From positions 62,001 to 126,000 of the forward strand of contig NZ_FCOK02000011.1 in assembly GCF_001544555.2 (NCBI RefSeq): DNA of 64,000 nucleotides, read 5' to 3'. Made by a program: the position numbers and the translations under genes. This document shows, piece after piece, positions 11,811 to 45,406 of the stretch; position 1 is the first letter of the stretch; each line of letters opens with the position of its first letter. Below the pieces are notes generated by a model. It saw only the letters and a program-made list of their open reading frames with translations, was not told the DNA's origin and searched no databases. Source of the DNA: Caballeronia udeis. GTDB taxonomy: Bacteria; Pseudomonadota; Gammaproteobacteria; Burkholderiales; Burkholderiaceae.

Positions 11811-11870
11811 TGCTTCGCGTGCTTTTGCGTGCTTTTGCGTGCTTTTGCGTGCTTTTGCGTGCTTTTGCGT
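11811..11870. repeat. 10-bp tandem repeat between flgB and flgA
   Basis: Five perfect head-to-tail copies of GCTTTTGCGT occupy 11821-11870, preceded by one degenerate copy at 11811-11820. The array starts 36 bases upstream of the flgB ATG, inside its 5' leader or promoter. The 345-base flgB-flgA interval (11776-12120) holds this array, three AGACGAAT-like words and no other gene that I can support. Confidence 0.95.
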
Positions 11871-11942
11871 GTCTCGTGATCAATGACGCCGGGCAATCAA
11901 GCAAGCGCCGGGACGCCATTGGCTATCGAAGACTTTTGCATG

Positions 11943-12047
11943 AGACGAATCTTAGGAGCGAGACGCAAGATGCAATCAGACGAATAACAGGGAAAGCCGG
12001 CCTCTATTCGACGCTTGCCTTTAGCCGCCGAAATCTAGAATTCGTCT
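11943..12047. promoter_or_regulatory. Three copies of an AGACGAAT word upstream of flgA
   Basis: AGACGAAT occurs directly at 11943-11950 and 11978-11985 and inverted (ATTCGTCT) at 12040-12047, all within 105 bases between the divergent flgB and flgA genes. Repeated short words in a divergent promoter region are compatible with an activator or repressor binding site, but no known consensus is matched, so the regulatory role is inference. Confidence 0.35.
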
Positions 12048-13662: not shown

Positions 13663-13722
13663 AGAATGGTCCGCAGTTGCCCTATGTGGGTTATCCCTCA
13701 CTTGTTTCAATTTGTTGCAATT

Positions 13723-13746
13723 CCTTATCGGGCTTATCCGATAAGG
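13723..13746. promoter_or_regulatory. Perfect 9-bp inverted repeat between flgA and flgM
   Basis: CCTTATCGG and CCGATAAGG flank a 6-base loop. No T-run follows, so this is not a classical intrinsic terminator. It lies 51 bases before the flgM sigma-28 promoter and contains CCGATAA, a core of the sigma-28 -10 element. It could be an operator or an RNA hairpin. Confidence 0.5.
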
Positions 13747-13796
13747 CTGAGCGGGAGATAGAGCGGACTGGCACGTGGTCCGGGCGGCGGGAAGGT

Positions 13797-14848: not shown

Positions 14849-14913
14849 ATGACGCCTTGCCTCATGCCTTCGCGCCATGTCTTCGCCGCATGCCGGTCGC
14901 GCCGGTTCCATCG

Positions 14914-14977
14914 CCCGAATTGCCCCCGTTTGTCCGCCCTGATCAAGCGATGGCCGCTTGCTGCTTTTCGCAATAAT
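14914..14977 (+). promoter_or_regulatory. flhBA promoter, shared with flhF
   Basis: This 64-base segment aligns without gaps to 26227-26290 upstream of flhF, with about 40 identities grouped in blocks: CCCGAATT at the left end, CCCC, TTT, ATCA, CGATGG, and GCAATAAT at the right end. AATAAT (14972-14977) looks like a sigma-70 -10 box; 17 bases upstream there is no good -35 (GATGGC), as expected for an activator-dependent promoter. In flagellated proteobacteria such class 2 promoters are activated by FlhDC. The flhB start follows at 15041. Confidence 0.7.
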
Positions 14978-15040
14978 CGCTCCACTGGATCAACACGTTA
15001 ACGGCTTCGTCGAAGCCCGGCGAGACTGGAGTGCAGCGAA

Positions 15041-16279
15041 GTGGCAGAAGAGAGCGACGTCGAAAAGACCGAATCAGCCACTCCCAAGCGCATTGAAAAG
15101 GCGCGGGAGGAAGGTCAGGTCGCGCGCTCGCGGGAACTCACGTCGTTCGCGCTGCTGGCGGCGGGGTTCTTCGGCATCTGGGGCCTGTCCGGTCCTCTCA
15201 GCCAGCACATGCAGGCCATCTTGCGCGGCGCGTTCACGTTCAATCACAAGACCGTCCTCGACACCAACCAGATGCTGATCGGCGCAACCGCCGCCGGCAA
15301 GGAAGGTTTCATGGCCCTGGCTCCGGTGCTCGCGCTGACGGGCCTGGCCGCGCTTGGCGCGCCCCTGGCGCTCGGCGGCTGGCTGCTCAGCACCAAAGCC
15401 ATGGCGCCCAATTTCAGCCGGCTGAACCCGATCAGCGGACTCGGCAAGATCTTCTCGTCGCAAGGACCGATTGCGCTCGGCATGTCGATCCTGAAGACCC
15501 TGGTGGTCGGCGGACTCGCCGGCTGGGCGATGTGGACCCGCAAGGACGAAGTGCTCGGCCTCGTCACCAAACCGCTGGACCTCGCACTCGCCGACACCAT
15601 GCATCTGCTCGTGGTGTGCTGCGGCATGGCGATCGCCGGACTGTTCCTCGTTGCCGCAGTCGATGTCCCTTACCAGCTCTGGACGCACGCGAAGAAGCTG
15701 CGCATGAGCAAGGAAGAAGTGAAGCGCGAGCATCGTGAAAGCGATGGCGACCCGGCGGTCAAGGCCCGCATTCGCGCGCAGCAACGTGCCGCTGCGCGCC
15801 GCCGGATGATGACCGCGGTGCCCACCGCCGACGTGATCGTCACCAACCCGACCCACTTCGCCGTCGCGCTGAAATATGCCGATGGCCAGATGCGCGCGCC
15901 GAAGGTCGTCGCGAAAGGCGTGAACCTCGTGGCCACGCGCATTCGTGAAATGGCGATCGAACACAACGTGCCGCTGCTCGAAGCACCGCCGCTTGCCCGG
16001 GCGCTGTATCACAACGTCGAGATCGACCGCGAGATTCCGGGTGCGCTGTACGGCGCCGTCGCGCAAGTGCTGGCGTGGGTATACCAGTTGCGCAAGTTCA
16101 AGGAAGACGGCGGCACGAAGCCGGACAAACCCGAGAATCTCGAGGTTCCTCCCGAACTCGACAAAGGCGGCGTTCCCGAATCAGAAGCCGACCAGGAAGC
16201 CGCCGAAGCATTCGCGGCAGACGCCGCAGCTAATGGCCCAAACGGCCCGAATGACCCGATGAAAGGAAGCAGAGCATGA
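15041..16279 (+). CDS. flhB: Flagellar export switch protein FlhB
   Basis: FlhB is the inner-membrane export gate component that changes substrate specificity from rod/hook to filament proteins. GTG at 15041 gives the family start MAEESDVEKTESATPKRIEK. Four membrane segments follow, then the cytoplasmic domain with the autocleavage motif NPTH (in VIVTNPTHFAVALKY, near residue 268). The 412-residue length includes a C-terminal acidic tail rich in Glu, Pro and Asp. The stop overlaps the flhA start (ATGA). Confidence 0.97.
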   Translation: MAEESDVEKTESATPKRIEKAREEGQVARSRELTSFALLAAGFFGIWGLSGPLSQHMQAILRGAFTFNHKTVLDTNQMLIGATAAGKEGFMALAPVLALTGLAALGAPLALGGWLLSTKAMAPNFSRLNPISGLGKIFSSQGPIALGMSILKTLVVGGLAGWAMWTRKDEVLGLVTKPLDLALADTMHLLVVCCGMAIAGLFLVAAVDVPYQLWTHAKKLRMSKEEVKREHRESDGDPAVKARIRAQQRAAARRRMMTAVPTADVIVTNPTHFAVALKYADGQMRAPKVVAKGVNLVATRIREMAIEHNVPLLEAPPLARALYHNVEIDREIPGALYGAVAQVLAWVYQLRKFKEDGGTKPDKPENLEVPPELDKGGVPESEADQEAAEAFAADAAANGPNGPNDPMKGSRA

Positions 16280-18378
16280 ACGCGCGCGCCGGATTTTTCT
16301 CGAAGCGCCCTGACGCATTGGGATCGCAGAACTTGCGGGCCTTAGCCGGCCCGGTGCTGATCTGCATGATCCTCGGCATGATGATCCTGCCGTTGCCGGC
16401 CTTTTTGCTCGACTTGCTGTTCACGTTCAACATCGCGCTGTCGGTGATGGTGCTGCTGGTCAGCATGTACACGCAAAAGCCGCTCGACTTTGCTGCATTC
16501 CCGAGCGTGCTGCTGTTCTCCACGCTGCTGCGTTTGTCGCTGAACGTGGCGTCCACGCGGATCGTGCTGCTCGAAGGCCATACCGGTCCCGATGCCGCCG
16601 GCCAGGTGATCGAATCGTTTGGCCACTTCCTGGTGGGCGGGAATTTCGCGGTCGGTATTGTCGTGTTCGTGATCCTGATGATCATCAACTTCATGGTGAT
16701 CACGAAGGGCGCGGGGCGGATTGCCGAAGTGGGCGCACGCTTCACCCTGGACGCCATGCCGGGTAAGCAGATGGCCATTGATGCCGACTTGAATGCCGGC
16801 CTCATCAACGAAGACCAGGCGCGCAAGCGCCGTTTGCAAGTCGCGCAGGAAGCCGAGTTCTACGGTTCCATGGATGGTGCGAGCAAGTTCGTGCGCGGCG
16901 ATGCGATCGCGGGCTTGATGATCATGATCATCAATATCGTGGGCGGCTTGATTGTCGGGATGGTCCAGCACGACATGGACTTCGCGCACGCGGCCACGAA
17001 CTACACGCTGCTGACCATTGGCGATGGCCTCGTCGCGCAGATCCCCTCGCTGATCATTTCGACGGCGGCGGGCGTGATCGTGTCGCGGGTGGCGACTGAA
17101 GAAGACATTGGCACGCAGTTGACGGGGCAGCTGTTCAACAACCCGCGCGTGTTGATGATTACCGGCGTGATCATCGGGATCATGGGCCTGATTCCCGGCA
17201 TGCCGCATTTCGCGTTCTTGCTGCTGGGCGGCGGTCTGGTGTATGCCGCGCGTTCGATGAACCAGCGCATCCAGGCAAAGAAGAAAACGTCGCTGGTAAC
17301 GGATGTCGTGCCTGCCGCCGCTGCACCGCTCGAAAACACGGAAGCGAGCTGGGACGACGTCGCGATGATCGATCCGCTCGGGCTCGAAGTGGGGTATCGG
17401 CTGATACCGCTGGTCGACCGGAACGCGGATGGCGAGTTGTTGAAACGGATCAAGGGTATCCGCAAGAAGTTCGCGCAGGAAATCGGCTTCCTGCCGCCGG
17501 TGATCCATATCCGCGACAACCTGGAGTTGCGTCCGAATGGTTACCGCATTGCGCTGAAGGGCGTGGAAGTGGGCGTAGGCGAAGCATTCCCGGGTCAGTG
17601 GCTCGCGATCAACCCGGGTCAGGTTTCGGCAACGTTGCCGGGGAATCCGACGCAAGATCCGGCATTTGGTTTGCCGGCGGTGTGGATCGATACGAACTTG
17701 CGTGAGCAGGCGCAGGTGTATGGCTACACCGTGGTCGATGCCAGCACGGTCGTGGCCACCCACCTCAACCATCTGGTCGTGACGCACGCCGCGGAATTGC
17801 TGGGCCGTCAGGAAGTGCAGGCGTTGCTGGAGCGTATAGGCAAGGACACGCCTTCGTTGACCGACGATCTGGTGCCGAAGACGCTGGCGCTGACGACCTT
17901 GCAGAAGGTGCTGCAGAACTTGCTGGACGAAGGCGTTCCTATCCGCGATATGCGCACGATCCTGGACGCATTGCAGGAACATGCGCCGAAGGTATCCGAC
18001 GCGTACGACCTGACTGCCGCGGTGCGTCTGGCGCTGGGCCGCGCGATCACACAGCAGTGGTATCCGGGCAGCGGCGAGTTGCAGGTGATGGGACTCGACC
18101 CGGCGCTGGAGCGCGTGCTGTCGCAGGCGTTGGCGACGGGGGCGAATCCGGGACTGGAACCGGGCCTGGCGCAGACGTTGTTGAACTCGACGCAAAACGC
18201 GATTCTGCGCCAGCAGAACATGGGGCTGCCGCCGGTGCTTCTGGTGCAGCATTCGCTGCGCGCCATGCTTGCTCGTTTCCTGAGAAGAAGCCTGCCGCAG
18301 TTGAAGGTGCTGTCGTATGCGGAAGTGCCGGATACCAGGAACATCAAGGTGATGAACCTGATCGGGCCGCAGGGGTAA
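16276..18378 (+). CDS. flhA: Flagellar export gate protein FlhA
   Basis: FlhA forms the nonameric export gate ring and the cytoplasmic docking platform for chaperone-substrate complexes. The 700-residue protein has about eight N-terminal membrane segments and the conserved block DAMPGKQMAIDADLNAGLIN between them, then the soluble domain (from about residue 350) ending in the FlhA C-terminal signature. It overlaps flhB by 4 bases, so translation is coupled. Confidence 0.98.
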   Translation: MNARAGFFSKRPDALGSQNLRALAGPVLICMILGMMILPLPAFLLDLLFTFNIALSVMVLLVSMYTQKPLDFAAFPSVLLFSTLLRLSLNVASTRIVLLEGHTGPDAAGQVIESFGHFLVGGNFAVGIVVFVILMIINFMVITKGAGRIAEVGARFTLDAMPGKQMAIDADLNAGLINEDQARKRRLQVAQEAEFYGSMDGASKFVRGDAIAGLMIMIINIVGGLIVGMVQHDMDFAHAATNYTLLTIGDGLVAQIPSLIISTAAGVIVSRVATEEDIGTQLTGQLFNNPRVLMITGVIIGIMGLIPGMPHFAFLLLGGGLVYAARSMNQRIQAKKKTSLVTDVVPAAAAPLENTEASWDDVAMIDPLGLEVGYRLIPLVDRNADGELLKRIKGIRKKFAQEIGFLPPVIHIRDNLELRPNGYRIALKGVEVGVGEAFPGQWLAINPGQVSATLPGNPTQDPAFGLPAVWIDTNLREQAQVYGYTVVDASTVVATHLNHLVVTHAAELLGRQEVQALLERIGKDTPSLTDDLVPKTLALTTLQKVLQNLLDEGVPIRDMRTILDALQEHAPKVSDAYDLTAAVRLALGRAITQQWYPGSGELQVMGLDPALERVLSQALATGANPGLEPGLAQTLLNSTQNAILRQQNMGLPPVLLVQHSLRAMLARFLRRSLPQLKVLSYAEVPDTRNIKVMNLIGPQG

Positions 18379-18380
18379 AA

Positions 18381-18405
18381 CGTCCGCCGCATCGCGTGGC
18401 GGACG
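18381..18405 (+). terminator. Hairpin after flhA
   Basis: CGTCCGCC (18381-18388) and GGCGGACG (18398-18405) form a perfect 8-bp stem with a 9-base loop, 2 bases after the flhA stop. No T-run follows, so it may slow read-through or protect the 3' end, not act as a classical terminator. It sits in a convergent gap with the permease gene. Confidence 0.55.
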
Positions 18406-18435
18406 GATGTTAATGAGCCGGTTAAAGGTCGGTTG

Positions 18436-19677
18436 TTAAAGCTCGGAAGCAACACTCCGCAGGCGGGTGACCCTGCTGAAAATCGTGTAGCAAATGCAAG
18501 CGACAATAATCGAATCGAGTGAAGGGATGCTGGTGAAGGAAAACACGCCCTTCACGGTCATGAACCCGACCAGCGACCCGATGATCCACGCAACGAACGT
18601 AAGCATCTTCACTTGCGGGTCGCTTGCGAGCAGGCGCTCGTCATACCCGCCTCGCCGATACAGTAGAAAGTCTGCTATATAAATCCCGGCCACAGGCGGC
18701 GTCGCAATGCCCAGGAAAAGCAGAAACGGAATAAACCACGCCATGATGTCCATGCTGCCGACAATCACCGCGAGCACGCCCAGCGCCACGGTAATTTGCC
18801 ACTTGGGAAATCGCGTGAACAAGGTGGAAACAACCAGCGTGCCTTGAAACATATTCCCGGCATTGCCCGTTACGGTCGCGAAAATGAGCAGTAAAGCGGC
18901 CGGCAGCACGGCCCCGAACACGGCCATGGCGCCGAGCAAGGAAGCTTTCCCCGAGATCCCGCTCGGCGTGGCGCCCGCCCAATACAACAACGGATAGGCG
19001 ATCAGGAACGTCAGCACCGCGCCAATCAACGCGTGCTTGCGATCGTGAACGAAGCTGCCGAAATCAGGCAGCGTGGCGACCAGCACAATGATCGTCCCGA
19101 CCACGGTGGAAACGGCCACGCCGGTGTTCATATCGGTGAACCCGGCTGGTACCGGGACTATTCCGTGAGCCGCGACATACACGCAATAACAGAGCATCAA
19201 CGCGATGACGGGTATGGCGAACTGAGCCACCTTCCCGAGCAGTTCGAAGCCAAAAGCCGTAGCCGCGACAAAAATCACGCAACCCACCGCAACCAGCACC
19301 GGCACTGGTATTTCGAGGCCCTGCTGCGCGAGCAGATCGTGGACCGAATGCCCGAACATGTTGGCGGTCACGGCAATCCACCCGAACAAACTGACCGCAA
19401 GCAGGATGTTGATGGCGACCGCCCCTTTTTCGCCGAACGGATATTTGACGATACCGTAGGTTGGCAGGCGCGCCTTCTCGCCGACGCAAATGGTGATGCC
19501 CGAAAGAATGGTCAGGATGATGCCGCCGATCACCACCACCTTGATCAACGCCAGGCTCGATAGCTGACTGCCGAGACTGGAGGAGGAGAGTAAAACCGGC
19601 GTGATCGCAATGCCCAATAAAATCATGGCAATGCGATACCCGGGCGCCGTATGCGGGCGTTCGTCAGTGTTGCGCAT
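18436..19677 (-). CDS. NCS1-family nucleobase/ureide permease (CodB-like)
   Basis: A predicted 12-helix inner-membrane transporter of the nucleobase-cation-symport-1 family (413 residues), by resemblance to cytosine permease: hydrophobic segments throughout, the early GIAITPVLL and the mid-protein GNAGNMFQGTLVVSTLF region. It is the last gene of an operon carrying oxamate carbamoyltransferase-type genes. I therefore infer uptake of a ureide or related nitrogen compound such as allantoin, oxalurate or a hydantoin; the substrate cannot be read from the sequence. It starts 28 bases after the preceding gene and converges with flhA. Confidence 0.8.
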   Translation of the reverse strand: MRNTDERPHTAPGYRIAMILLGIAITPVLLSSSSLGSQLSSLALIKVVVIGGIILTILSGITICVGEKARLPTYGIVKYPFGEKGAVAINILLAVSLFGWIAVTANMFGHSVHDLLAQQGLEIPVPVLVAVGCVIFVAATAFGFELLGKVAQFAIPVIALMLCYCVYVAAHGIVPVPAGFTDMNTGVAVSTVVGTIIVLVATLPDFGSFVHDRKHALIGAVLTFLIAYPLLYWAGATPSGISGKASLLGAMAVFGAVLPAALLLIFATVTGNAGNMFQGTLVVSTLFTRFPKWQITVALGVLAVIVGSMDIMAWFIPFLLFLGIATPPVAGIYIADFLLYRRGGYDERLLASDPQVKMLTFVAWIIGSLVGFMTVKGVFSFTSIPSLDSIIVACICYTIFSRVTRLRSVASEL

Positions 19678-19705
19678 ACAAATGTTCCTCGGAAATTCCG
19701 CGCAG

Positions 19706-20098
19706 TCAGGCGGAATGGAAATGGCCGGTGTAGGCGCGCCAGCTTCCGTGCGCGGTGATGTCCTTCTGGTTTTCGACCAGCCAGGGTTCGGCGAGCACGC
19801 CCAATAGCTGGCTGCCGTTGCGAAGCGTCACCTTGCCTATCGCCAGCCCCGCCGGTTCGCTCAACAGCAACGCGGCGAACGACGCAAGCGGCAACTCCCA
19901 GACCTCGAGCGCGATCGACGTTCCGCCTGTTGTCACGCGAATCATTCCCGGATGGCGATCGCCAATGCTCCAGAGCAGGTAGTGCGGATCGGTTTGATCT
20001 TCACGCACGAACACGCCGCCAGCCGCCGTCATGTTGCCGTTCAGTTCGAGTCCGCGCATGAGCGTGCCGTTGACGGCCAGCAACGTAGTCTTGTTCAT
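19706..20098 (-). CDS. Stand-alone allophanate-hydrolase C-terminal-like domain protein
   Basis: A 130-residue protein resembling the C-terminal domain of allophanate hydrolase (gamma-glutamylcyclotransferase-like fold): it opens LLAVNGTLMRGLELNGNM and contains WSIGDRHPGMIRVTTGGTSIALEVWELP and KVTLRNGSQLLGVLAEPW. No amidase domain is attached. ATG 20098 is chosen because AAGG lies 8 bases upstream; a TTG 7 codons earlier is the alternative. It lies between the carbamate kinase and permease genes of the same operon. Its reaction is unknown; action on a carbamoylated intermediate of the pathway is inference. Confidence 0.7.
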   Translation of the reverse strand: MNKTTLLAVNGTLMRGLELNGNMTAAGGVFVREDQTDPHYLLWSIGDRHPGMIRVTTGGTSIALEVWELPLASFAALLLSEPAGLAIGKVTLRNGSQLLGVLAEPWLVENQKDITAHGSWRAYTGHFHSA

Positions 20099-20162
20099 CT
20101 GTCTGCCTTCGTTCTTCAATAAAAACTGGTATTGCTAAATAAAATGCCAACGGCTTGAACCA

Positions 20163-21120
20163 CTATTGCGTGATCCACGTCCCGGTCTTGTGATCAAGTG
20201 CACGCTTGATCGCTTCGGGGCTGGTAATCAAGCCCTTTCCGTGCCCGCCATTCGACCGGCTATGGGTAACGAATCGCATGATGGCTTCCACTTTGGGCAA
20301 CATGCTTCCCGCGCCGAACTGGTTTTGCGTGATCAATTCGTGCGCTTCGGCCAGGCTCAACGTGTCCAGCCAGCGCTGATCCGGTTTGCCGAAATTGATG
20401 GCCACCTGTTCCACGCCTGTCGGAATCAGCAGGAGATCAGCGCCCAGTTGCTCGGCGAGCAGGGCCGACGCCAGATCCTTGTCGATGACCGCTTCCACGC
20501 CCGAGATCTGCTGGTGCTCATCGACCAGAACGGGAATGCCTCCGCCGCCGCACGCAATTACCGCACCCCTGCGCAAGCAACGTCGCGATCACCTCGCGCT
20601 CCATGATCTCCAGCGGCTGAGGCGAAGCCACTGTGCGGCGCCAGCCCCGCCCGGCGTCTTCCATCAGCGTCCATCCGAGTGACTGTTGCCGCTGCCGCGC
20701 GGTGGCTTCATCGAGGAAAGCGCCTATTGGTTTGCCGGGATTGAGGAACGCCGGATCGTTCGGGCTGACACGCGTCTGGGTCACAACGGTGACCACTTGC
20801 CGATGAATCCCGCGACGCCGCAGCGCATTGCTCAACGCCTTTTGAAACATATAGCCAATAGCGCCCTGCGTATCCCCGACGGCATAGTCCAGCGGTACCG
20901 GCCGGACTTCATCGGCGGCGAGTTCGGAGCGGCGGAGGATAAAACCGACTTGCGGTCCGTTGCCGTGTGTCAGCACCAGGTCCCACCCGGCCTCGATCAT
21001 GTCGGCAATGTGCCGGGCACTTTCGACGACCGCGTCGTATTGATCAGGAATACTATTGTGTTGATCGTCGCGGATCAGCGCGTTGCCGCCGACCGCGACA
21101 ATAGCCAGAGGCTTGGTCAT
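20163..21120 (-). pseudogene. allK: Carbamate kinase AllK, frameshifted
   Basis: Carbamate kinase makes ATP from carbamoyl phosphate. The 5' part starts MTKPLAIVAVGGNALIRDDQ at 21120 and runs to about residue 184 (EREVIATLLAQG). The rest, AVIACGGGGIPVLVDEHQ to the stop at 20163, is in another frame. At 20565-20570 (plus-strand ACCCCT) one surplus base separates the halves; removing it joins LAQG to AVIACGGGG and restores about 318 residues, the normal size. Motifs GGNAL, GNGPQVG, GGGGIPV and NFGKPDQRW are intact. It is either a real single-base lesion or a sequencing error. The gene follows allG after 19 bases. Confidence 0.85.
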
Positions 21121-21139
21121 GATGCGTGTCCCGTGTGGT

Positions 21140-22546
21140 TTAAACGTATTCGGCGAGCGCGCGAATCGCTTCGATGAAACCCGGCATAGGCGCAGCGGTA
21201 ATGCCCGCGCCGATCTGCCCGACGCCAGCCTCCTTGTGCGCAATCCCGGTATTGATGATCGGCAGGATGCCGCGATCGACCACCTTGCGGGCGTCAATAC
21301 CCGCAGCGGTCGGCGCGAAATTCAGTGCGGGGAGCGTGAACGCGGGATTGCCGCCCAGCGTGATGGCCTGCATGCGGCGGCTGTTGCTGGTGGCGTCCGC
21401 CGGCGTGCCGCCCACGAACTTGACAATAGCCGGCGACGACGCCATGGCGAAACCGCCCACGCCTGCGGTCTCGGTGATGGCGCTGTCGCCGAGATCCGCG
21501 GCGGCGTCTTCCACGCCATAGCCCGGGAAGAACAATCCTTCCACCGGATTGGCGGGCGCCTGGAACCATCGGTCGCCCGTGCCGGACATGCGAATGCCGA
21601 AGTTCACGCCGTTACGCGCCATGACCGTGATCATGGAGCTGAAGGGCACGTTGTGGGCCGCATCGGTCATCGCCTTGCACGCGGCCATGGAGAGATTGAG
21701 GAAGAAGTGATCGTTGCCGACAATGAATTCCGTCACGCGCTGAATCCGTTCGATCGGCAATCCAGTCGACAGCAACGCGGGAATCAGGCGTTTGATCAGG
21801 AGGCCGGTGGCGGCCGCGTTGCGGTTATGGACCTCGTCGCCCATGTGCAACGCCTGCGCCATCAGCGGCTTCAACTCCACTTCGCCCAGCACCTTCAACG
21901 CGGCCTTCAATGCCGGCGCGAGCTCCTGGGCCATCCAGTGCAGGCGGTCCAGCACTTCGCCGTTGTTGGCCCCGAAACGGAGCACCTTGCCGAGCCCTTC
22001 GTTGAAGTTGCTGAAAGCCCGCCGGCCATTGGTCTTGTTCTCGATCACCCAGAGCGGCATGGACGGACTGATGATGCCGGCCATTGGACCGACCGCCTGA
22101 TAGTGATGACACGGCTCGAAATCGATCGCGCCGTCCGCCGCCAGACGCTCGGCGGCTTCGTGGGTCGTCGCCCATCCTTCGAACAGGATCGCGCCGACAA
22201 TCGCGCCCTTTACCGGTCCGCACATATCGGCCCAGTCGATGGGCGGTCCCGCGTGCAGGATCAGCTTGCGATGCGCCATTGCGCCGATCGCGTGCGATGC
22301 GCTCATGACATCGACGAGAACTGGCTGGGCGGCGAGATACTGCTGGAACGCCTGGTCGTTGGCCTGCTCGACCAGCGGATGGCGAATCAGCGATGCCAGC
22401 GCCAGCCCCGCGTCCACGTCGCCGAGAGCGGGCGGCTGCCAGCGCAAATCAGTGACGTTGCCGCCGGCGAGGGCGAGGTTTTCGGCGAAACTGCTCAGGC
22501 CTGCGTTCACCACGGTCAGTGGCTGATTAAATAGCGTGTTCATCAT
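21140..22546 (-). CDS. allG: Oxamate carbamoyltransferase subunit AllG (DUF1116, YlbE)
   Basis: AllG (formerly YlbE, DUF1116) is one of three proteins forming oxamate carbamoyltransferase, which turns oxalurate plus phosphate into oxamate and carbamoyl phosphate. The protein has 468 residues from ATG 22546; the adjacent ATG at 22543 is equally possible. It shows family blocks HRKLILHAGPPIDWADMCGP, FNEGLGKVLRFGAN, NGVNFGIRMSGTGDRWF and the ending IGAGITAAPMPGF. It starts 7 bases after the fdrA stop, with GGGA just upstream. Intact. Confidence 0.9.
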   Translation of the reverse strand: MMNTLFNQPLTVVNAGLSSFAENLALAGGNVTDLRWQPPALGDVDAGLALASLIRHPLVEQANDQAFQQYLAAQPVLVDVMSASHAIGAMAHRKLILHAGPPIDWADMCGPVKGAIVGAILFEGWATTHEAAERLAADGAIDFEPCHHYQAVGPMAGIISPSMPLWVIENKTNGRRAFSNFNEGLGKVLRFGANNGEVLDRLHWMAQELAPALKAALKVLGEVELKPLMAQALHMGDEVHNRNAAATGLLIKRLIPALLSTGLPIERIQRVTEFIVGNDHFFLNLSMAACKAMTDAAHNVPFSSMITVMARNGVNFGIRMSGTGDRWFQAPANPVEGLFFPGYGVEDAAADLGDSAITETAGVGGFAMASSPAIVKFVGGTPADATSNSRRMQAITLGGNPAFTLPALNFAPTAAGIDARKVVDRGILPIINTGIAHKEAGVGQIGAGITAAPMPGFIEAIRALAEYV

Positions 22547-22553
22547 GGTCCCG

Positions 22554-24110
22554 TTATTTTTGCGCCTGAAGATGGGCGACATGGCTCGCCCAGAGCGCCG
22601 CCTGCGCGTTGCATCCGGCGACCAAAACACCGGCTTCGCGCAAGGTATCGACCTGACGGCTCCGGACTTGTGGATCGGCTTCGGTGCCGCAAACGTGGGA
22701 GATCAGGACCGGCAAGTCGCGGCCGGCCGCTTGCAGGCGCGCGTGTTCGATCAGCGTCAGCAACTCGCTGGCGGGTTCCGTCGATGCGCCATAACCCAGC
22801 ACGAGATCGAACAGCACGACGGCGACTTGCGGGTCGTTCAGTTCCGCGAGGATTCGCTGGTTGCGCAGCGTGGGATCGATCATGGGATGCGGACGGCCGC
22901 GCGTGAAGTCGTCGTCGCCCATGTCCACGAGCGTGTGGCCGGTGCTGCGCCAGATATCCTCGAGCTTGCTGTTGGATGCAACCGGCGTATTCGACGACGC
23001 GGCGAAACCGCGTTCCCGGCATAACAACTGGCTCTCGTAGCAAAACGTGCCGCCCGCGAACACACCGCGGATAAAGCGCCGCATGGGCCGCAACGTACGG
23101 CTGTAATCGTGGAGACGGCCGGCGTCCGGCGTGCTGATCCCGGCTACCGTTGGCGGCAGTTCAGCGCCCGACAACAACGCGACGGCAAAGCCGGCGGCAT
23201 CGGCCAGGGTGTAGGCCGGAGTGATTCCCGGCACGTTCATGTCTTCGGCTCGCGCACCCAGGAAGTTGACAACCACCGGCTTGCCTGCGGCGCGCGCCCG
23301 CGCGAGGATTTGTTCCGCGACCGCCGGAGCCGGCGGTTTGGAGATCAGCACGATCACCTGGGTGTCGGGATCCGCGCTCAGCGCATCGAGACCGTGCAGC
23401 ATGGAAATCCCGCCGATCGATTCGTCCAGGTCATGACCGCCCGTGCCGAGCGCCTGCGAAATCCCGGCGCCCAACTGGTCGATGCGGCATGTCACTTCCT
23501 GCAGTCCCGTGCCCGACGCCGCCACCACGCCGATCGCTCCGCGCCTGACCACGTTGGCGAAACCCAGCGGCATCCCGTTGACAATGGCCGTCCCGCAATC
23601 GGGGCCCATTACCAGCAGGTTTTTCTCAGCCGCGAGCGTCTTGATGGCGCGCTCGTGGGCGAGGCTGACGTTGTCGCTGAACAGCATCACCGAAAGCCCC
23701 AGGTGCAGCGCCTTGATCGCTTCGGCGGCGGCGTAATCGCCAGGAACCGAAATAAGCGCCAGATTCGATGCCGCCTGCTGCTCCACTGCCATTTCGGGGC
23801 TGGCAAGTGGCGGCGGACGCACGCCGTCGCCGCTCGACTCCTCCGGCTTGCTGCTCAAACGCTCTTCCGCGATACCGAGCGCGACGTCACATGCGGCGAT
23901 CTCGCCCCTCACCGCGATCACGAGATCGTTGGGGCCCGCCTTGCAGCCGTCGTCCAAACCCGCGTCTCGCAGTTGCGCCAGATTGGTGCCGGTTCCCATC
24001 ACTACCGACGCTTGCTCGATGCCGTCGAGCCTGGAAATGTGCGCGGAGATCTGCATCAGGGAGACGGAGTCCTGATACATGTTCTGGAAGACCTTGGTTC
24101 TTATACTCAT
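22554..24110 (-). CDS. fdrA: Oxamate carbamoyltransferase subunit AllF (FdrA)
   Basis: FdrA/AllF is a succinyl-CoA-synthetase-like protein and the second subunit of oxamate carbamoyltransferase. The 518-residue protein starts MSIRTKVFQNMYQDSVSLMQ, close to the E. coli FdrA start, followed by VVMGTGTN. The CoA-ligase-type region has GPDCGTAIVNGMPLGFANVV, VAASGTGLQEVT and GTGGHDLDESIGG. The C-terminal third contains VLFDLVLGYGASTEPA. It is slightly shorter than E. coli FdrA (555). It lies 146 bases after the DUF2877 gene; that gap holds no gene. Confidence 0.9.
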   Translation of the reverse strand: MSIRTKVFQNMYQDSVSLMQISAHISRLDGIEQASVVMGTGTNLAQLRDAGLDDGCKAGPNDLVIAVRGEIAACDVALGIAEERLSSKPEESSGDGVRPPPLASPEMAVEQQAASNLALISVPGDYAAAEAIKALHLGLSVMLFSDNVSLAHERAIKTLAAEKNLLVMGPDCGTAIVNGMPLGFANVVRRGAIGVVAASGTGLQEVTCRIDQLGAGISQALGTGGHDLDESIGGISMLHGLDALSADPDTQVIVLISKPPAPAVAEQILARARAAGKPVVVNFLGARAEDMNVPGITPAYTLADAAGFAVALLSGAELPPTVAGISTPDAGRLHDYSRTLRPMRRFIRGVFAGGTFCYESQLLCRERGFAASSNTPVASNSKLEDIWRSTGHTLVDMGDDDFTRGRPHPMIDPTLRNQRILAELNDPQVAVVLFDLVLGYGASTEPASELLTLIEHARLQAAGRDLPVLISHVCGTEADPQVRSRQVDTLREAGVLVAGCNAQAALWASHVAHLQAQK

Positions 24111-24256
24111 TTCAAATATTCCGGTAATCGGTACGCCTGCTTCTCCGGATTTGGCCGAATCCCGGCCTGGCGAATCAGGCGCTGTGCGCGCTCGATGCCA
24201 TCAATCCTGCTCACTCGACAATGTCGATAGTCGTGTCCGCCGATTCGTTTTAAGAA

Positions 24257-25144
24257 TCAGCTCATTTCTTCTTGCGTCACTTTTCCCAACGTTCTTATTC
24301 CGTGCAGGAAACCGGCAAGGCAATCCGCGCCGGATGAAGAGCCGAATTGCATGACATCGATTGCTGCGCGCTTTATGTCCAGCGGCGGCCTTCCACGAAT
24401 CAGAACGGTTGATAAATGGTCAATGGGTTGTGAATAGTGTCCCTGCAACGCCAGTCCCAGATAATGCCGGCTGATACTGGTCGTCCGGTGAAGCTGATGC
24501 TTGATTACCGGACGCAATAGTTTCAAATGCGCGGATATGGCATCGAGATGTTGCCAAGACCATAACAACGCCAGATAACCGAGGAGGTAGTCGTCGCCGT
24601 CGGGCGTCAGCCCCGCCCCGTATCCAATCAGTTCCGAGACGCTGCTCTCCAGCGCGGCCGTTGAGTCACCAGGATTCAGGCTGGGCACACGTCCGCCCGA
24701 TGACCAGGTTGGCAGCAACTGCAAGCTGCTGCGCACCTCGCGTTGCAGGCAATACTGCGACAGCTGGCTTGCCAGCGCCGGATAAGCCGCCAGCAGCGCT
24801 TCCGGCGAACAGCCGCGATCCAGGCGCCCTGTTTCGGGCCGCCAGCAAGGCGCCCGGTCCAGGTTTGCGCGCCAGAGCGCGCCGCGCAACTCGTTGTTCT
24901 CGAGCGTGATGGGCTGCTGTGAATGCACCTGATGGCGCCAATCCCACCCGGGCGGCGTCAGGAGCCTGATCGCCGTGGGCAGGTTCTGGTAACGCGGACC
25001 GAGCAAGGTCAGCAACTCGCCGCTCGACGACGAGATATTCAACGCATGGTGGAAGCAGCTATGGACCCAGAACCGCAGCGTCTCGCGCGGCCCATGCTCC
25101 GCCAGATAACCCACCGAGCACACCGGGAACGTGAGGAGCGCCAT
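24257..25144 (-). CDS. allH: Oxamate carbamoyltransferase subunit AllH-like (DUF2877, YlbF)
   Basis: The DUF2877 family includes AllH (YlbF), the third oxamate carbamoyltransferase subunit. From ATG 25144 (MALLTFPVCSVGYL) the protein has 295 residues. The hallmark GYGAGLTPDGDDYLLGYLAL is at about residues 195-214, and the end GSSSGADCLAGFLHGIRTL is typical. The in-frame extension to 25345 overlaps the neighbouring gene and is not used. It follows the cysteine hydrolase gene after 17 bases. Confidence 0.82.
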   Translation of the reverse strand: MALLTFPVCSVGYLAEHGPRETLRFWVHSCFHHALNISSSSGELLTLLGPRYQNLPTAIRLLTPPGWDWRHQVHSQQPITLENNELRGALWRANLDRAPCWRPETGRLDRGCSPEALLAAYPALASQLSQYCLQREVRSSLQLLPTWSSGGRVPSLNPGDSTAALESSVSELIGYGAGLTPDGDDYLLGYLALLWSWQHLDAISAHLKLLRPVIKHQLHRTTSISRHYLGLALQGHYSQPIDHLSTVLIRGRPPLDIKRAAIDVMQFGSSSGADCLAGFLHGIRTLGKVTQEEMS

Positions 25145-25161
25145 GGCCAGCCCCGGTGGCG

Positions 25162-25830
25162 TCAGCCGCGCAAGCCGTCGACAATGGCGGCGGCGTCGCT
25201 GACCCAACCGAATATTGCGCCCTGGGCCTTGATCATCTCCAGCGCCGACTTCTGGAATTCGGGGAAATACGAACCCACGCAATCCGCCGCGACAATGCAC
25301 TCGTAGCCGCGGTCGTTGGCTTCGCGCACGGTGGTGGTTACGCAAACTTCAGTGGTCACCCCGCACACGATAAGCGTCTTGATAGCGTGGTTCTGCAGGA
25401 TCAACTGCAGGTCGGTTTCATAGAACGCGCCCTTGCCGGGCTTGTCGATGATCGGTTCGCCCAGCGCCGGGTACAGCTCGGGGATGATGTCGTGACCTGC
25501 TTCGCCGCGTACCAGAATGCGGCCCATTGGACCGTCGGTGCCAATGAAGGTCTTGCCGCCCCGGGTCAGTTTCGCGGGTGGGCAATCGGCCAGGTCGGCG
25601 CGATGGCCCTCACGCGTGTGGATGACCAGCAACTTCGAATCACGCGCTGCCTTCAACACTTTCCCTCACGGGACGATCGCGCTGCGCACCAGGGAAACGT
25701 CATTTCCCAATGCTTCGCCAAATCCCCCCGGTTCAACAAAATCGCGCTGCATGTCGATCATGACCAATGCAGTGGTTTTTGAATCGAACGATAGTGGAAA
25801 TGGGTTTGCGCGAAATAGTTTCTGAAGCAT
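25162..25830 (-). pseudogene. Cysteine hydrolase (isochorismatase fold) with in-frame TGA
   Basis: An amidohydrolase of the isochorismatase/N-carbamoyl amidase fold. The frame starts ATG 25830 and reads [15 protein letters not shown], then [17 protein letters not shown] with the catalytic Asp region, up to VRSAIVP, where TGA (25666-25668) stops it after 54 residues. The same frame continues without a shift as GKVLKAARDSKLLVIHTREG and on to the catalytic-Cys block CGVTTEVCVTTTVREANDRG and the natural stop at 25162. One base change (CGA to TGA fits) explains the lesion. A GTG inside (25659) could start a 165-residue fragment lacking the catalytic Asp. It is the first gene of the oxamate operon. 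Confidence 0.85.
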
Positions 25831-26226
25831 TTCGATATTCCTTGATTAATGTCAGGACGTGAAACTCTTGCCCTGTCATTGCGAATTCATTAAATTGTCC
25901 TTCGATTTATTATAGGTAGATTCGCTTTGACGCACGATAGATATTTCACTGACTTAACCATTGTTCATTGATTTTCAGGCTTGATTAAAGTCGTTTCAAA
26001 AACTTAATAAAATCATTATCACGAACTCGCCGGCACTGTGTTGCGCAATAATAAAACGGAAGATGAAATAATCGTTTGAACGCTAATGCCGGACGACACA
26101 CCAGGTAATGAAACGATTGCTGAAGTTTGCCGTCGCGGCCGCCGAATTCATGCAATCAATTGTCTGATGTTTGATCCGGCATGCATCTCCCCGATGCAGT
26201 CCACGCGCCGGCCCCGCCGCCGATCT
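25831..26226. other. AT-rich intergenic region upstream of the catabolic operon
   Basis: The interval between the divergent cysteine hydrolase and flhF genes is over 500 bases. The part 25850-26070 is clearly AT-rich compared with its surroundings and probably holds the promoter of the minus-strand catabolic operon. I see no gene and no recognisable operator; the segment 26227-26290 next to flhF is listed separately. Confidence 0.5.
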
Positions 26227-26290
26227 CCCGAATTACCCCGCTTTCCCGGCTCTTATCAGCCGATGGTCCGCCAGCCGCCCTTGCAATAAT
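26227..26290 (+). promoter_or_regulatory. flhF promoter, shared with flhBA
   Basis: This is the second copy of the 64-base ungapped element also found at 14914-14977. Conserved blocks are CCCGAATT, CCCC, TTT, ATCA, CGATGG and the terminal GCAATAAT; AATAAT (26285-26290) fits a -10 box. The flhF ATG is 91 bases downstream. An FlhDC-type class 2 activation site is inferred. Confidence 0.7.
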
Positions 26291-26381: not shown

Positions 26382-28106
26382 ATGAACATCCGCAAATTTA
26401 TCGGTGCTACGAGTCGCGACGCGTTTCGGCTTGTCCGTGAAGCACTGGGCCCCGATGCGGTCGTGTTGTCGAACCGGGTAACCGAAGACGGCAGCATAGA
26501 AATTGTCGCTGTGGCGGACGGCGACCTCGCGAAGATTTCCCCGAAAGCAGCCGCCCAGCATCGCGAGATGAAACTGAGGGCGTCGGCCGAAAGCCCGTCG
26601 CACGCGCAGTCGCATTTGCAGCCTCATTCGCAACCTCATTCGAATTTGAGCGCGGGCTCGAACCCTTATGCGAGCGGCGATGTCTTTTCGTCGGTGTTCG
26701 GCGCCAATCCGGAACCGCTGGACGATCACCAGCCCGAAGCGCAGCCGGTAGACGCGTCGCGCACGATGGCCGAATCGAATCCCTGGCTGATCGAGCATGC
26801 GCGCCGGGTCGCGCAATCGGCGCACTCGGCGGCTGAAAGTGCGCCGCAACGCGCGCTAAGCGCATCGACGGCAATTGCGAAGGGACTGGGCGCTCCCGTG
26901 ACTGTCACGCCGGAGGAAGCAGCCCAAGCCCCGGGGTGGACACGCGAAGCGGCGCAACTCGCCGCTCGCCGCGCGGAACAAAAGACCGCGCAACTGCACG
27001 CCCAGACCCAAACCTATATGTCCGCGGCGCAAACCGCCAGTTCGATGCAGGAAGGCGCCTTCGCGGGCCTGCCGGCATCGGCCGCTGCCGCGGTTACCGA
27101 AGCCGTCCGCACGCGCGTGGAGCAAGTCATGAAGGACACCGTCATGAATGAGCTTTCGTCCATGCGCGGCATGATGGAAGAGCACTTCGCCGGCTTGCTG
27201 TGGGGTGATCGCCAGCGCCGCAGCCCGAATCACGCCGCGTTGACCAAGCGCCTGTTTGCCGCCGGTTTCTCCGCGCAACTGGTCCGTTTGATGGTCGACA
27301 ACATGCCGGAGATCGAAGCGGCCGAAGCGTCCATGCAATGGGTTCAGCAAGTGCTCGAAAACAACCTGCCCGTCATGGACAGCGAAGAATCGATGATGAA
27401 CCGCGGCGGCGTTTTCGCGCTGATGGGCCCGACGGGCGTGGGCAAGACCACGACCACCGCGAAGCTCGCCGCGCGCTGCGTGATGCGCTTTGGCGCCAGC
27501 AAGGTCGCGCTGCTCACCACGGACAGCTACCGGATCGGCGCACACGAACAACTGCGTATTTTCGGCAAGATCCTCGGGGTGTCGGTGCATGCGGTGAAAG
27601 ACGCGAGCGACCTGCAACTCGCGCTCTCCGAACTGCGCAACAAGCACATTGTGCTGATCGACACGATCGGCATGAGTCAGCGTGACCGTACCGTCGCCGA
27701 CCATATCGCCATGCTGTGCGGCGCCGGCCACCCGGTGCAGCGCCTGCTGCTGCTGAACGCAACCAGCCACGGCGACACGTTGAACGAAGTCGTGCAGGCC
27801 TACCAGAGCACGCCGGACCAGCCGCCGCTCGCGGGCTGCATCCTGACCAAGCTCGACGAAGCCACGAACCTGGGTGGCGTGCTCGACACCGTGATCCGTT
27901 ACAAGCTGCCCGTGCATTACGTATCGACGGGTCAGAAGGTGCCGGAAAACCTGTACGTCGCGACCAAGCGATTCCTGATCAAGAGCGCCTTCTGCATCCC
28001 GCGCGACGGCTCACCGTTCGTGCCGCAAGACGACGACGTGCCGCCGCTCCTGTCCGCGCTCTCCGCGCGCGCTTCCACAGAACTCCATGAGGTCCATTTT
28101 GGATAA
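26382..28106 (+). CDS. flhF: Flagellar placement GTPase FlhF
   Basis: FlhF is an SRP-type GTPase that sets the site and number of polar flagella. The 574-residue protein starts MNIRKFIGATSRDAFRLVRE behind a GGGGGG ribosome site. An Ala/Gln-rich, poorly conserved N-terminal half of about 300 residues is followed by the NG domain: P-loop GPTGVGKTTTTAKLAAR (about 350), DTIGMSQRD (G3), and TKLDEATNLGGVLD (G4). It overlaps flhG by 20 bases and shares its promoter type with flhBA. Confidence 0.96.
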   Translation: MNIRKFIGATSRDAFRLVREALGPDAVVLSNRVTEDGSIEIVAVADGDLAKISPKAAAQHREMKLRASAESPSHAQSHLQPHSQPHSNLSAGSNPYASGDVFSSVFGANPEPLDDHQPEAQPVDASRTMAESNPWLIEHARRVAQSAHSAAESAPQRALSASTAIAKGLGAPVTVTPEEAAQAPGWTREAAQLAARRAEQKTAQLHAQTQTYMSAAQTASSMQEGAFAGLPASAAAAVTEAVRTRVEQVMKDTVMNELSSMRGMMEEHFAGLLWGDRQRRSPNHAALTKRLFAAGFSAQLVRLMVDNMPEIEAAEASMQWVQQVLENNLPVMDSEESMMNRGGVFALMGPTGVGKTTTTAKLAARCVMRFGASKVALLTTDSYRIGAHEQLRIFGKILGVSVHAVKDASDLQLALSELRNKHIVLIDTIGMSQRDRTVADHIAMLCGAGHPVQRLLLLNATSHGDTLNEVVQAYQSTPDQPPLAGCILTKLDEATNLGGVLDTVIRYKLPVHYVSTGQKVPENLYVATKRFLIKSAFCIPRDGSPFVPQDDDVPPLLSALSARASTELHEVHFG

Positions 28107-29031
28107 GTTCGTGTCCGATCAGGCTGAAGGCTTGCGCCGTCTGCTGACGCGCAGCGGCTCTCGGGTCGTGGCGGTGTGCGGCGCCCCGGCAGGTGGATTG
28201 GGGGGGACCGGCAATACCTCGACGGTCGTCAACCTCGCCTCCGCCCTCGCCGCGCAAGGCAAGGACGTGCTGGTGATCGACGAGCGCCAGAACGCGTTGT
28301 CGGTGAACCGGCTGGCGAAGGTGGTGCCCAACGGCGCGCTGGGCGCTGTCTTGTCCGGCAAGCGTTTTTTAGAGGATGCCGTCACGCACACGCCGTTCGG
28401 TTTTTCCGTGATCGCCGCGCCGCGCGACGAACGGATCAGCCAGGACGCCGCGCATTGCCGGGTGCTCCTCGACGGACCCGCCGATGTCGTACTGATCGAT
28501 ACCCAGCTCGATCGCAGCGGCGCGCTCTCCAGTCTGGCCGTGCAAGCGCACGACTTCGTGATCGTGACGCGCGTAGCGCCTGCCGCGATCACCGAGGCGT
28601 ATGCCTGCATCAAGCGCTTGCACTACGCGCATGCCATCAGCCGCTTCCGGATCGTGGTGAATCACGTGAAGAACGCCGCGGACGCGCAACTCGCCTTCGA
28701 CAACCTCGCGAGCGTTGCGGACCGCTATCTCGCGGTGCAACTCATGCCGGCGGGTTGCGTGGCCGAGGATCCGCACGTGGCACGGGCGCACGAGCTGTCG
28801 CGCTGCGCGGTGGAAGCTTTTCCGGCGACGGCCGCCGCCCGGGATTATCGGCAGATTGCCGCTGAATTGCAGTACTGGCCGATGCCGCAAGCGTCGCAGT
28901 TTGAATGGCCCGTGCAGACCATGCGAGCGGAAACGCAGCATGAGTTGGGGCGCTCGATCAACTCCGGCGCGGTACGCCGCACCGAAACGCCATTGATGCA
29001 GCTTGCGATGAGCAGCCCCGCATCCGTGTGA
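28087..29031 (+). CDS. flhG: Flagellar number regulator FlhG with degenerate P-loop
   Basis: FlhG is a MinD/ParA-like ATPase that counteracts FlhF and limits flagellar number. The 314-residue protein carries the N-terminal FlhF-activating helix DQAEGLRRLL (residues 11-20). The deviant Walker A is degenerate: GAPAGGLGGTGNTSTVVNLA (residues 32-51) lacks the lysines of the usual KGGxGKT, although downstream MinD-like blocks (VLVIDERQN, DVVLIDTQLD) remain. The start lies inside flhF. ATP binding may therefore be weak or absent. Confidence 0.9.
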   Translation: MRSILDKFVSDQAEGLRRLLTRSGSRVVAVCGAPAGGLGGTGNTSTVVNLASALAAQGKDVLVIDERQNALSVNRLAKVVPNGALGAVLSGKRFLEDAVTHTPFGFSVIAAPRDERISQDAAHCRVLLDGPADVVLIDTQLDRSGALSSLAVQAHDFVIVTRVAPAAITEAYACIKRLHYAHAISRFRIVVNHVKNAADAQLAFDNLASVADRYLAVQLMPAGCVAEDPHVARAHELSRCAVEAFPATAAARDYRQIAAELQYWPMPQASQFEWPVQTMRAETQHELGRSINSGAVRRTETPLMQLAMSSPASV

Positions 29032-29052: not shown

Positions 29053-29793
29053 GTGAATGCGATGTATAACGCCCAGGGAAAACTGTCACAGTCCGAAGTC
29101 CTGACCCGCTACGCGCCGCTGGTGCGCCGGCTCGGACTGCAGCTCGTGGCCAAAATGCCGGCCAGCGTCGATCTGGACGACCTGATCCAGGCCGGCATGA
29201 TCGGCTTGCTGGACGCGGCCAGCCGCTATAAGGAGGATCAGGGCGCTCAGTTCGAGACCTACGCCAGCCAGCGGATTCGCGGTGCGATGCTCGACGAGTT
29301 GCGCGCCAACGACTGGCTGCCGCGCAGCATGCGCAAGACCTCGCGCGAAGTCGAATCTGCGGTGCACAAGGTCGAGCAGCATCTTGGGCGCTCGGCGAGC
29401 GAACAGGAAGTGGCCGAGCACCTGAACATGCCGCTCATCGAATACCAGGCCATGCTGCAGGATCTGCATGGCAGCCAGTTGATCTATTACGAAGACTTCG
29501 ACCGGTCTTCGGATGACGAGCCGTTTCTCGACCGTTATTGCGTCGATAAAGCCGATCCGCTCTCCGCGCTGCTCGACGGCAACTTGCGCTCCGCGCTCGT
29601 GGACGCAATCGATAAACTGCCTGAGCGCGAAAAGCTGCTGATGAGCCTGTATTACGAGAAGGGCTTGAATCTGCGCGAGATTGGCGCCGTGATGGAAGTC
29701 AGTGAATCGCGCGTGTGCCAGTTGCACAGCCAGGCCGTCGCGCGGCTACGGGCGAAGTTGCGGGAACAGGCATGGTCGGGTGTGGAGGCCTGA
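29053..29793 (+). CDS. fliA: Flagellar sigma factor FliA (sigma-28)
   Basis: FliA directs RNA polymerase to late flagellar promoters, and candidates are present in this window before flgK, the PilZ gene and flgM. The 246-residue protein has region 2 (DLDDLIQAGMIGLLDAASRY), region 3 and region 4 with the helix-turn-helix LREIGAVMEVSESRVCQLHS. GTG 29053 and ATG 29062 are both possible; AAGGTG 6 bases before the ATG makes MYNAQGK an attractive alternative start. It ends the flhF-flhG-fliA operon. Confidence 0.97.
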   Translation: MNAMYNAQGKLSQSEVLTRYAPLVRRLGLQLVAKMPASVDLDDLIQAGMIGLLDAASRYKEDQGAQFETYASQRIRGAMLDELRANDWLPRSMRKTSREVESAVHKVEQHLGRSASEQEVAEHLNMPLIEYQAMLQDLHGSQLIYYEDFDRSSDDEPFLDRYCVDKADPLSALLDGNLRSALVDAIDKLPEREKLLMSLYYEKGLNLREIGAVMEVSESRVCQLHSQAVARLRAKLREQAWSGVEA

Positions 29794-44344: not shown

Positions 44345-45361
44345 ATGCAATCTCGCAAGCTGTCGCTTATGTCGTTCGCCGTTGCGGCGATCGCGTTCGC
44401 TTTCACGATGGACGCACACGCGGCGACGCTCGCCGTGAGCACCGTACTTGCACCAATCGATTTCGCTGCGCATGGCCTGGGCGCCCTGGGTATCGGTTCC
44501 GTTGCACTGGCCGGCGCGAACGCCGACACGGTGAAGCATGCGGCAACGAAGTTTTTCCGCATTGCTGTCGAAGGCGCGACCACGGACGGCCGCAACATCT
44601 CGCGCGAATGGCTCACGCAAATGGCGAAGAACTACAGCCCCGAGCTGTACGGCGCACGTCTGAATCTCGAACACTATCGCGGCATCATTCCCGATGGTCC
44701 GTTCAAGGCATACGGCGACGTTCTCGCGCTCGAAACCCGCGACGAAACGGGCGTGCTCGCTGGAAAGCTCGGCCTCTATGCGCAAATTGCCCCGACGCCC
44801 GAACTCGTCGCGCTGACGAAGGCCAAGCAAAAAATCTATACCTCGTGCGAAGTCGACCCGTCTTTCGCCGACACCAAGCAAGCCTATTTGATCGGCCTGG
44901 CCGTGACCGATAGCCCGGCGAGCCTCGGAACTGAAATCCTTTCTTTCGCAGCTCAAAACCCGGCGGCCTCGCCGTTCGCGAGTCGCAAGGTAAGCCCGAC
45001 GAACCTCTTTACGGTCGCCGACGAAACGGTGATCGAGCTGGAAGCGGAACCGGCGCCGGCTGCGCCCTCACTGTTCGCTCGCGTTGCCGAGCTGCTCGGC
45101 CTGGCGAAAGAGAAGGGCGCCAAAGACGACACGCGATTCGCTGACGTAACGCAAGCGGTCGAAGCGATCGCCACGCACGGCAACGACCAGGCCGCGACAT
45201 TGGCCGCCCTGCAAGCGACCGTCGCCGAGCTGACGGCCGCCGGCGAGCGCGATCGCCAAGCGTTCGCGGAGCTGCAAACGCAGCTCTCGACAACCGGCAA
45301 CGGCCAACCCCTGCGGCCGGCGGCAACCGGCGCCAACGCCGAAATCAAAACCGACTGCTAA
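44345..45361 (+). CDS. Phage capsid scaffolding protease (P2 gpO) with N-terminal extension
   Basis: gpO is the head scaffold and maturation protease. From residue about 67 the protein matches it: KFFRIAVEGATTDGRNISRE, LYGARLNLEHYRGIIPDGPF, KIYTSCEVDPSFADT, YLIGLAVTDSPASLGTE. It carries about 62 extra N-terminal residues with a basic start, a hydrophobic segment (about 8-20) and DAHAA, which look like a signal peptide. ATG 44345 has GGAGA 8 bases upstream. GTG 44531 would give the normal P2-like start but lacks a ribosome site. 338 residues in the long form. Confidence 0.92.
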   Translation: MQSRKLSLMSFAVAAIAFAFTMDAHAATLAVSTVLAPIDFAAHGLGALGIGSVALAGANADTVKHAATKFFRIAVEGATTDGRNISREWLTQMAKNYSPELYGARLNLEHYRGIIPDGPFKAYGDVLALETRDETGVLAGKLGLYAQIAPTPELVALTKAKQKIYTSCEVDPSFADTKQAYLIGLAVTDSPASLGTEILSFAAQNPAASPFASRKVSPTNLFTVADETVIELEAEPAPAAPSLFARVAELLGLAKEKGAKDDTRFADVTQAVEAIATHGNDQAATLAALQATVAELTAAGERDRQAFAELQTQLSTTGNGQPLRPAATGANAEIKTDC

Positions 45362-45406
45362 ACCGACCCCCTCGGCACTTCCTCGACCCTTGGAGTAACA
45401 CACAAC

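Follow-up and report, generated by a model that had tools for sequence, protein, structure and literature searches.

A shared element before flhB and flhF

The flagellar genes flhB and flhF of Caballeronia udeis are each preceded by a copy of the same short stretch of DNA, which raises the question of what this stretch is and how flhF came to have one of its own. The window, that is the whole stretch of 64,000 nucleotides that was analysed, is part of contig C11 of a 10.05-Mb genome (G000). On its minus strand it carries flgK, flgI, flgE and two rod genes, the outermost of which was taken as flgB, while flgA and flgM also lie in the window, ahead of flhB. The genes that matter here are the following.

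15041..16279, plus strand: flhB, with a GTG start (TIGR00328, over cut-off)
16276..18378, plus strand: flhA (TIGR01398, over cut-off)
18436..25659, minus strand: genes between flhA and flhF, probably of ureide/oxamate catabolism as judged by their Pfam domains
26382..28106, plus strand: flhF (TIGR03499, over cut-off)
28087..29031, plus strand: MinD-like ATPase, assigned as flhG because it follows flhF (MinD-type matches, none over cut-off)
29053..29793, plus strand: fliA, sigma-28 (NF005413, over cut-off)

The gap between flhA and flhF measures 8003 bp. Its genes encode a purine-type permease, an allophanate hydrolase C-terminal domain, amino acid kinase pieces, AllG, a CoA-ligase, AllH and an isochorismatase; the amino acid kinase matches span two overlapping open reading frames (20163-20576 and 20518-21297), which may be separate genes or the product of a frameshift. 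Elsewhere in the window, genes for a P2-type phage capsid scaffold and major capsid protein (44345-46411) are probably part of a prophage.

The earlier note on this DNA had described two 64-nt stretches that align without gaps, with about 40 identical positions in named blocks. Pairwise alignment of 14914-14977 with 26227-26290 confirmed this, giving exactly 40 of 64 ungapped identities, and no ungapped 64-nt match of one 500-bp upstream stretch with the other exceeded 40. Likewise as described, both copies end in AATAAT at 64-92 bases before a gene, the measured distances being 64 nt to the flhB GTG at 15041 and 92 nt to the flhF ATG at 26382. If the two upstream stretches were alike merely by chance, shuffled sequences should do as well; however, 500 first-order Markov shuffled pairs reached a mean of 31.6 (s.d. 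1.3) and a maximum of 36. In the rest of the window no place on either strand matched either copy at more than 33 of 64 positions, and a 40-nt pattern searched with up to 3 mismatches found no place in the 10.05-Mb genome beyond the flhB and flhF elements. A 78-nt profile, scored on 150 of 4685 first-look candidates, gave the two elements 69 and 64.8 bits and the next two matches, both inside open reading frames, 14.1 and 12.8 bits.

Three parts of the element: inverted repeat, unconserved spacer and -10 hexamer

We found that the conserved unit begins 5 nt earlier than the 64-nt block, with CATC or GATC at 14909 and 26222. An ungapped alignment of 55 distinct genus sequences showed AATAAT, CGA, TTT and A-TC to be invariant, and column symmetry, computed over the genus elements, singled out one centre (0.189, the next best being 0.103, against a mean over centres of 0.004 and s.d. 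of 0.052). Around this centre the left arm reads CATC-NN-CCGAATWACC and the right arm is its imperfect mirror image, with an inner distance shorter by 1 nt than that of the left arm, the whole box covering 45 bp. Between the two copies in the window, identity is 33/45 in the inverted repeat, 4/18 in the spacer and 6/6 in the -10. The 64-nt block is thus an inverted-repeat box followed by a free spacer and a -10, with these parts:

14909..14953, plus strand: predicted FlhDC box of the flhB promoter, a 45-bp imperfect inverted repeat (sequence, conservation and symmetry)
14954..14971, plus strand: 18-nt spacer from the flhB box to the -10, not conserved against the flhF copy (4/18 identity)
14972..14977, plus strand: -10 hexamer AATAAT of flhB (without variation across the 55 distinct genus sequences)
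26222..26266, plus strand: predicted FlhDC box of the flhF promoter, 33/45 identical to the flhB box (sequence and conservation)
26285..26290, plus strand: -10 hexamer AATAAT of flhF (without variation across the 55 distinct genus sequences)

Transcription would start near A14984 for flhB and near A26297 for flhF. Promoters of FliA (sigma-28) have TAAAG and GCCGATAA boxes; by eye, GCAATAAT in the flhB and flhF upstream stretches is partly like a FliA -10, and no TAAAG-like -35 was seen in these stretches.

The element is conserved in the genus and the family

Among fetched, best-matching genus loci the element was present before flhB in 30 of 30 and before flhF in 30 of 30, and its presence in all 60 refutes chance likeness of the two upstream stretches, an explanation whose probability we regard as practically nil. 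In other genera of the Burkholderiaceae, 36 of 39 flhB upstreams (19 search loci and 20 picked by hand, the latter from a list of 93 out of 120 family genomes with an FlhB match) scored above 10, namely 19/19 of the near and 17/20 of the far ones, compared with about -1 for shuffles; the three low scorers, all far, lay at 3.6-4.8. The note had stated that its proposal would fall if the blocks were not conserved in relatives, and with 60/60 genus loci and 36/39 other-genus upstreams above 10 it passed that trial.

The box fits the FlhDC consensus and matches E. coli promoters bound by FlhDC

In the available part of PMC9962212, the published E. coli FlhDC box is given as AAYGSSNNAAATAGCG-N10-12-CGCTATTTNNSSCRTT, 42-44 bp long, and the available text of PMC12888815 quotes a base-specific E. 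coli consensus, ANNAN18TN(A/T)TN6(A/T)T. As for form, an FlhDC site is expected to be an inverted repeat of two half-sites over about 42-45 bp, and the box of the element spans 45 bp around a symmetry centre. As for the base-specific letters, all 60 genus elements fitted the consensus at one offset with 6 or 7 of its 7 letters: 7/7 in 17 and 6/7 in 13 of the 30 flhB elements, and 6/7 in 30 of the 30 flhF elements, in all of which one letter is missing. Both window copies have 6/7, and as a background 0.18% of the window 34-mers reach 6 or 7 of 7.

We also scanned 31.5 kb of flagellar regions of E. coli MG1655 using a matrix built only from Burkholderiaceae flhB and flhF boxes. The top 8 distinct matches included the fliA, fliD, flhB, flgB and fliL promoters, all five of which are FlhDC-bound according to Table 1 in the available part of PMC4183435, fliD by ChIP-qPCR only; this 5 of 8 speaks for kinship with FlhDC-bound sites. 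With column-shuffled matrices none of 300 scans reached five bound promoters, the maximum being 3. The remaining 3 of the top 8 matches lie inside genes, the second-ranked one (18.2) inside flhB, and the FlhDC-bound E. coli fliE/fliF site was not among the top 12 matches of the Burkholderiaceae matrix.

The box before flhB tends to go with FlhC

If the box is an FlhDC site, it belongs in genomes that have the regulator. The genome of C. udeis encodes both subunits as a pair, FlhC at G000:C32:35267-35782 beside FlhD at C32:35810-36115. This FlhC (P0001, 219 residues) matches the solved FlhC chain 8j56 over residues 3-174 (E = 8e-64) and 2avu over residues 2-173 (E = 2e-59); we take 8j56 to be from Cupriavidus and to have been published with promoter DNA. 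A second full-length FlhC (G000:C36:68600-69115) shares 59% identity with it in an alignment of 224 columns; the contig of this second FlhC yielded no match to FlhD. The genome also encodes a second FlhD, on a different contig (G000:C73:46600-46890). FlhC is present in 55 of 58 genus genomes, and many genomes of the genus gave several rows of FlhC matches, fragments among them. Across the order, 141 of 200 genomes have FlhA and 72 of 200 have FlhC over cut-off.

Outside the Burkholderiaceae we compared 40 hand-picked genomes with full-length FlhC and 40 hand-picked genomes with no FlhC match, of which 37 and 35 could be scored; three FlhC-positive rows were dropped (L153 and L181, FlhB not found; L182, extraction too long), as were five FlhC-negative rows in which FlhB was not found (L206, L211, L214, L215 and L223). 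A matrix made from the genus only performed poorly at this distance (FlhC-positive median 2.4, with 3/38 above 10 and 0/35 of the FlhC-negative upstreams above 10), and it was replaced by one widened with family sequences and complemented by a hand-set -10 matrix. The box plus -10 upstream of flhB separated the 37 from the 35 with an AUC of 0.936 (p = 1e-10), a value favoured by the choice of the -10 matrix after NATAAT had been seen behind many weak boxes in the same genomes, and the box alone with an AUC of 0.779 (p = 2e-5); FlhC presence follows lineage, and both p values ignore kinship. Scores above 12.3 were found in 24/37 FlhC-positive and 1/35 FlhC-negative upstreams, and NATAAT, which forms part of the score, followed the best box in 30/37 and 5/35, respectively. 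Absence of the box in genomes lacking FlhC is thus a tendency (AUC 0.936) with one exception, genome G081 (L187), which holds the FlhC-negative maximum of 18.6, a value that only 14 of the 37 FlhC-positive upstreams exceed. G081 has an FlhDC-like box before flhB, although neither an FlhC nor an FlhD match was found in its genome; one reading is a recent loss that left a relic site.

These results bear on a rival explanation, namely that a different flagellar activator, peculiar to Burkholderiales and co-occurring with FlhDC, binds the element. The box centre CCCC..TTTC, conserved in the elements although the E. coli consensus leaves the centre open, would suit such an activator. Against it, however, stand the fit of all 60 elements to the published FlhDC consensus in a single register, the ability of a Burkholderiaceae-only matrix to pick out E. 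coli promoters bound by FlhDC, and the distribution of scores above 12.3 (24/37 with FlhC, 1/35 without), and we consider another activator quite improbable. In our judgement each element is very probably a class 2 flagellar promoter, consisting of a predicted FlhDC box and a putative sigma-70 -10. The note's guess that the activator is probably FlhDC is borne out insofar as the inverted repeat fits the consensus, matches bound promoters of E. coli and goes with FlhC outside the family.

We infer that FlhDC of C. udeis binds the two boxes and activates. The FlhDC complex would bind the 45-bp inverted repeat, each arm providing a half-site (CATC-NN-CCGAATWA on one side, its imperfect mirror on the other), and sigma-70 polymerase would use NATAAT as the -10, 18 nt past the inner arm. 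A -35 would have to lie where the inner arm is, so that FlhDC would take over from the missing -35 contact. As FlhDC would cover the 45-bp repeat and RNA polymerase the spacer and AATAAT, the 64 nt is not the footprint of one protein: of the note's idea of one large activator complex over the whole 64 nt, the complex stands and the single footprint does not.

Other class 2 promoters in the C. udeis genome

With the -10 included, the own-genome box scores were 26.1 for fliL, 16.3 for flgA, 13.6 for flgB, 11.9 for fliF and 8.9 for fliE, to be read against a random background of 300 stretches of 346 nt with a 95% value of 7.1 and a maximum of 12.2. The fliL and flgA/flgB boxes are clear of chance, but those of fliF and fliE are by themselves not; the latter two are one shared place, with scores (11.9/8.9) below the random maximum of 12.2. 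Of the matches before other class 2 genes for which the note had proposed a scan, those of fliL and flgB exceed the random maximum, and that of fliF (11.9 < 12.2) does not. In the window the divergent flgB and flgA promoters share one box:

11973..12017, serving both directions: weaker predicted FlhDC box common to the divergent flgB and flgA promoters (16.3 towards flgA, 13.6 towards flgB)
12036..12041, plus strand: predicted flgA -10 TAGAAT, 18 nt from the box (box-plus--10 scan)
11948..11954, minus strand: predicted flgB -10 TAAGAT or AAGATT, 18-19 nt from the box (box-plus--10 scan)

The distance from box to -10 is 18 nt at flhB, flhF, fliL and flgA, and 17-19 nt at flgB and the weak fliF/fliE place, so that the box lies upstream of class 2 operons at a fixed distance from the -10. 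These other class 2 promoters were found only with the half-site matrix, most clearly with the -10 added, whereas the strong pattern and the 78-nt profile found flhB and flhF only. In the genus, the fliL box was present in 27 of 30 loci, the other three being masked (L259) or cut at a wrongly placed position with no start codon there (L265, L275), and the flgB/flgA box, at up to 2 mismatches, in 6 of 9 named loci; among the three misses L003 starts past the expected place, L005 starts close to it, and L007, with 10 kb of sequence, has 22 mismatches at best.

Two repeats were noticed nearby. In the flgB leader, between flgB and its box, a tandem repeat of about 11 nt (tgcgtgctttt) is visible by eye at about 11815-11875 of the window, and CCGATAAG-type repeats in both directions, perhaps sigma-28 sites, lie before flgM at 13700-13760.

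flhF outside the operon has a box of its own

According to the available part of PMC3885665, the flhBAFG genes of Burkholderia glumae are transcribed together, and expression of flhF there requires FlhDC. We examined flhF in 20 family relatives, selected when the distance between flhB and flhF was already roughly known; L245 could be placed on neither side of the following split. In 8/20 relatives flhF overlaps flhA by 4 nt, and in the 500 nt before flhF no box in these eight scored above 4.6. In 11/20 relatives flhF is detached, the distance to flhA ranging from 287 to 3598 bp, and without exception these relatives have an flhF box scoring 25.1 to 63.8 (300 random stretches of 400 nt gave a maximum of 13.3) and followed 18 nt on by AATAAT (10) or GATAAT (1). 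Where flhF overlaps flhA, it could be read from the flhB promoter; in the window, flhF would have its own box because about 8 kb of other genes cut it off from flhBA. We tentatively suggest, as something possible rather than likely, that in the Burkholderiaceae the flhBAFG operon was broken between flhA and flhF, and that wherever such a break occurred flhF is served by an FlhDC promoter of its own, which in some lineages nearly copies that of flhB. That a broken operon and a second predicted FlhDC promoter go together so neatly is the less expected part of the finding.

How the second promoter arose is a separate matter. The flhB promoter may have been duplicated before flhF, so that not all of the likeness would be needed, an origin compatible with our reading of the element as an FlhDC promoter. 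In the window, the boxes of flhB and flhF agree at 33/45 positions, compared with 17-26/45 for either of them against its flgB/flgA or fliL box, and in four relatives (G264, G283, G299 and G342) the flhB and flhF promoters of the same genome agree at 38-43/45 of the box and 9-12/18 of the spacer. However, over the 33 genomes that have both boxes the same-genome identity averages 33.4/45, hardly above the cross-genome 31.7. Beyond the -10, likeness in the four relatives amounts to 17-21/40 positions, little above the other 29 genomes (8-20/40). Likeness past the -10 was accordingly rejected as proof of duplication, since the counts of the four relatives hardly stand out. Duplication from flhB to flhF is possible, and as the source of the likeness we hold it to be rather unlikely.

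With flhF apart from its old operon and still under the same predicted FlhDC switch, the intact and broken operons offer a natural series for studying the origin of promoters in genes that leave an operon. If our suggestion holds, the break-up of an operon was met by gaining, perhaps by duplicating, a promoter of the master regulator, and the dose of the placement factor FlhF could be tuned apart from the export gate. For the family, the predicted 45-bp box, 18 nt and NATAAT make up a concrete model of the flagellar master regulator's site that can be put to the test.

Comparison with known FlhDC promoters

The earlier note, to whose author the FlhDC binding sequence in this genus was not well known, needs correcting here: the E. 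coli box is published (PMC9962212), and an FlhDC box has also been derived in a relative within the Burkholderiales, Acidovorax delafieldii (PMC12888815), as far as the available parts of these sources go. The kind of site is known, and the literature already contains an example from this bacterial order. In the open PMC literature, no title found names an FlhDC box of Caballeronia, and the available part of PMC2885672 gives no FlhDC site. The available A. delafieldii text (PMC12888815) does not mention flhF, and the spacing to the -10 and an flhF box are absent from it.

As in the E. coli class 2 promoters described in the available parts of PMC9962212 and PMC4183435, the element here has an AATA-type core within an inverted repeat of 42-45 bp that precedes the -10, and the match at E. 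coli fliA is followed, after 17 nt, by GATAAT. Unlike in E. coli, the half-site here starts with CATC rather than with the AAYG given in the available part of PMC9962212, the centre CCCC..TTTC is conserved where the E. coli consensus, as available, leaves it open, and the genus shows AATAAT as its -10 in every one of the 55 distinct sequences. Finally, as in B. glumae (available part of PMC3885665), flhF is tied to FlhDC, here by a predicted box; however, whereas flhF there is part of the transcript with flhBA, here it lies 8 kb off with a box of its own.
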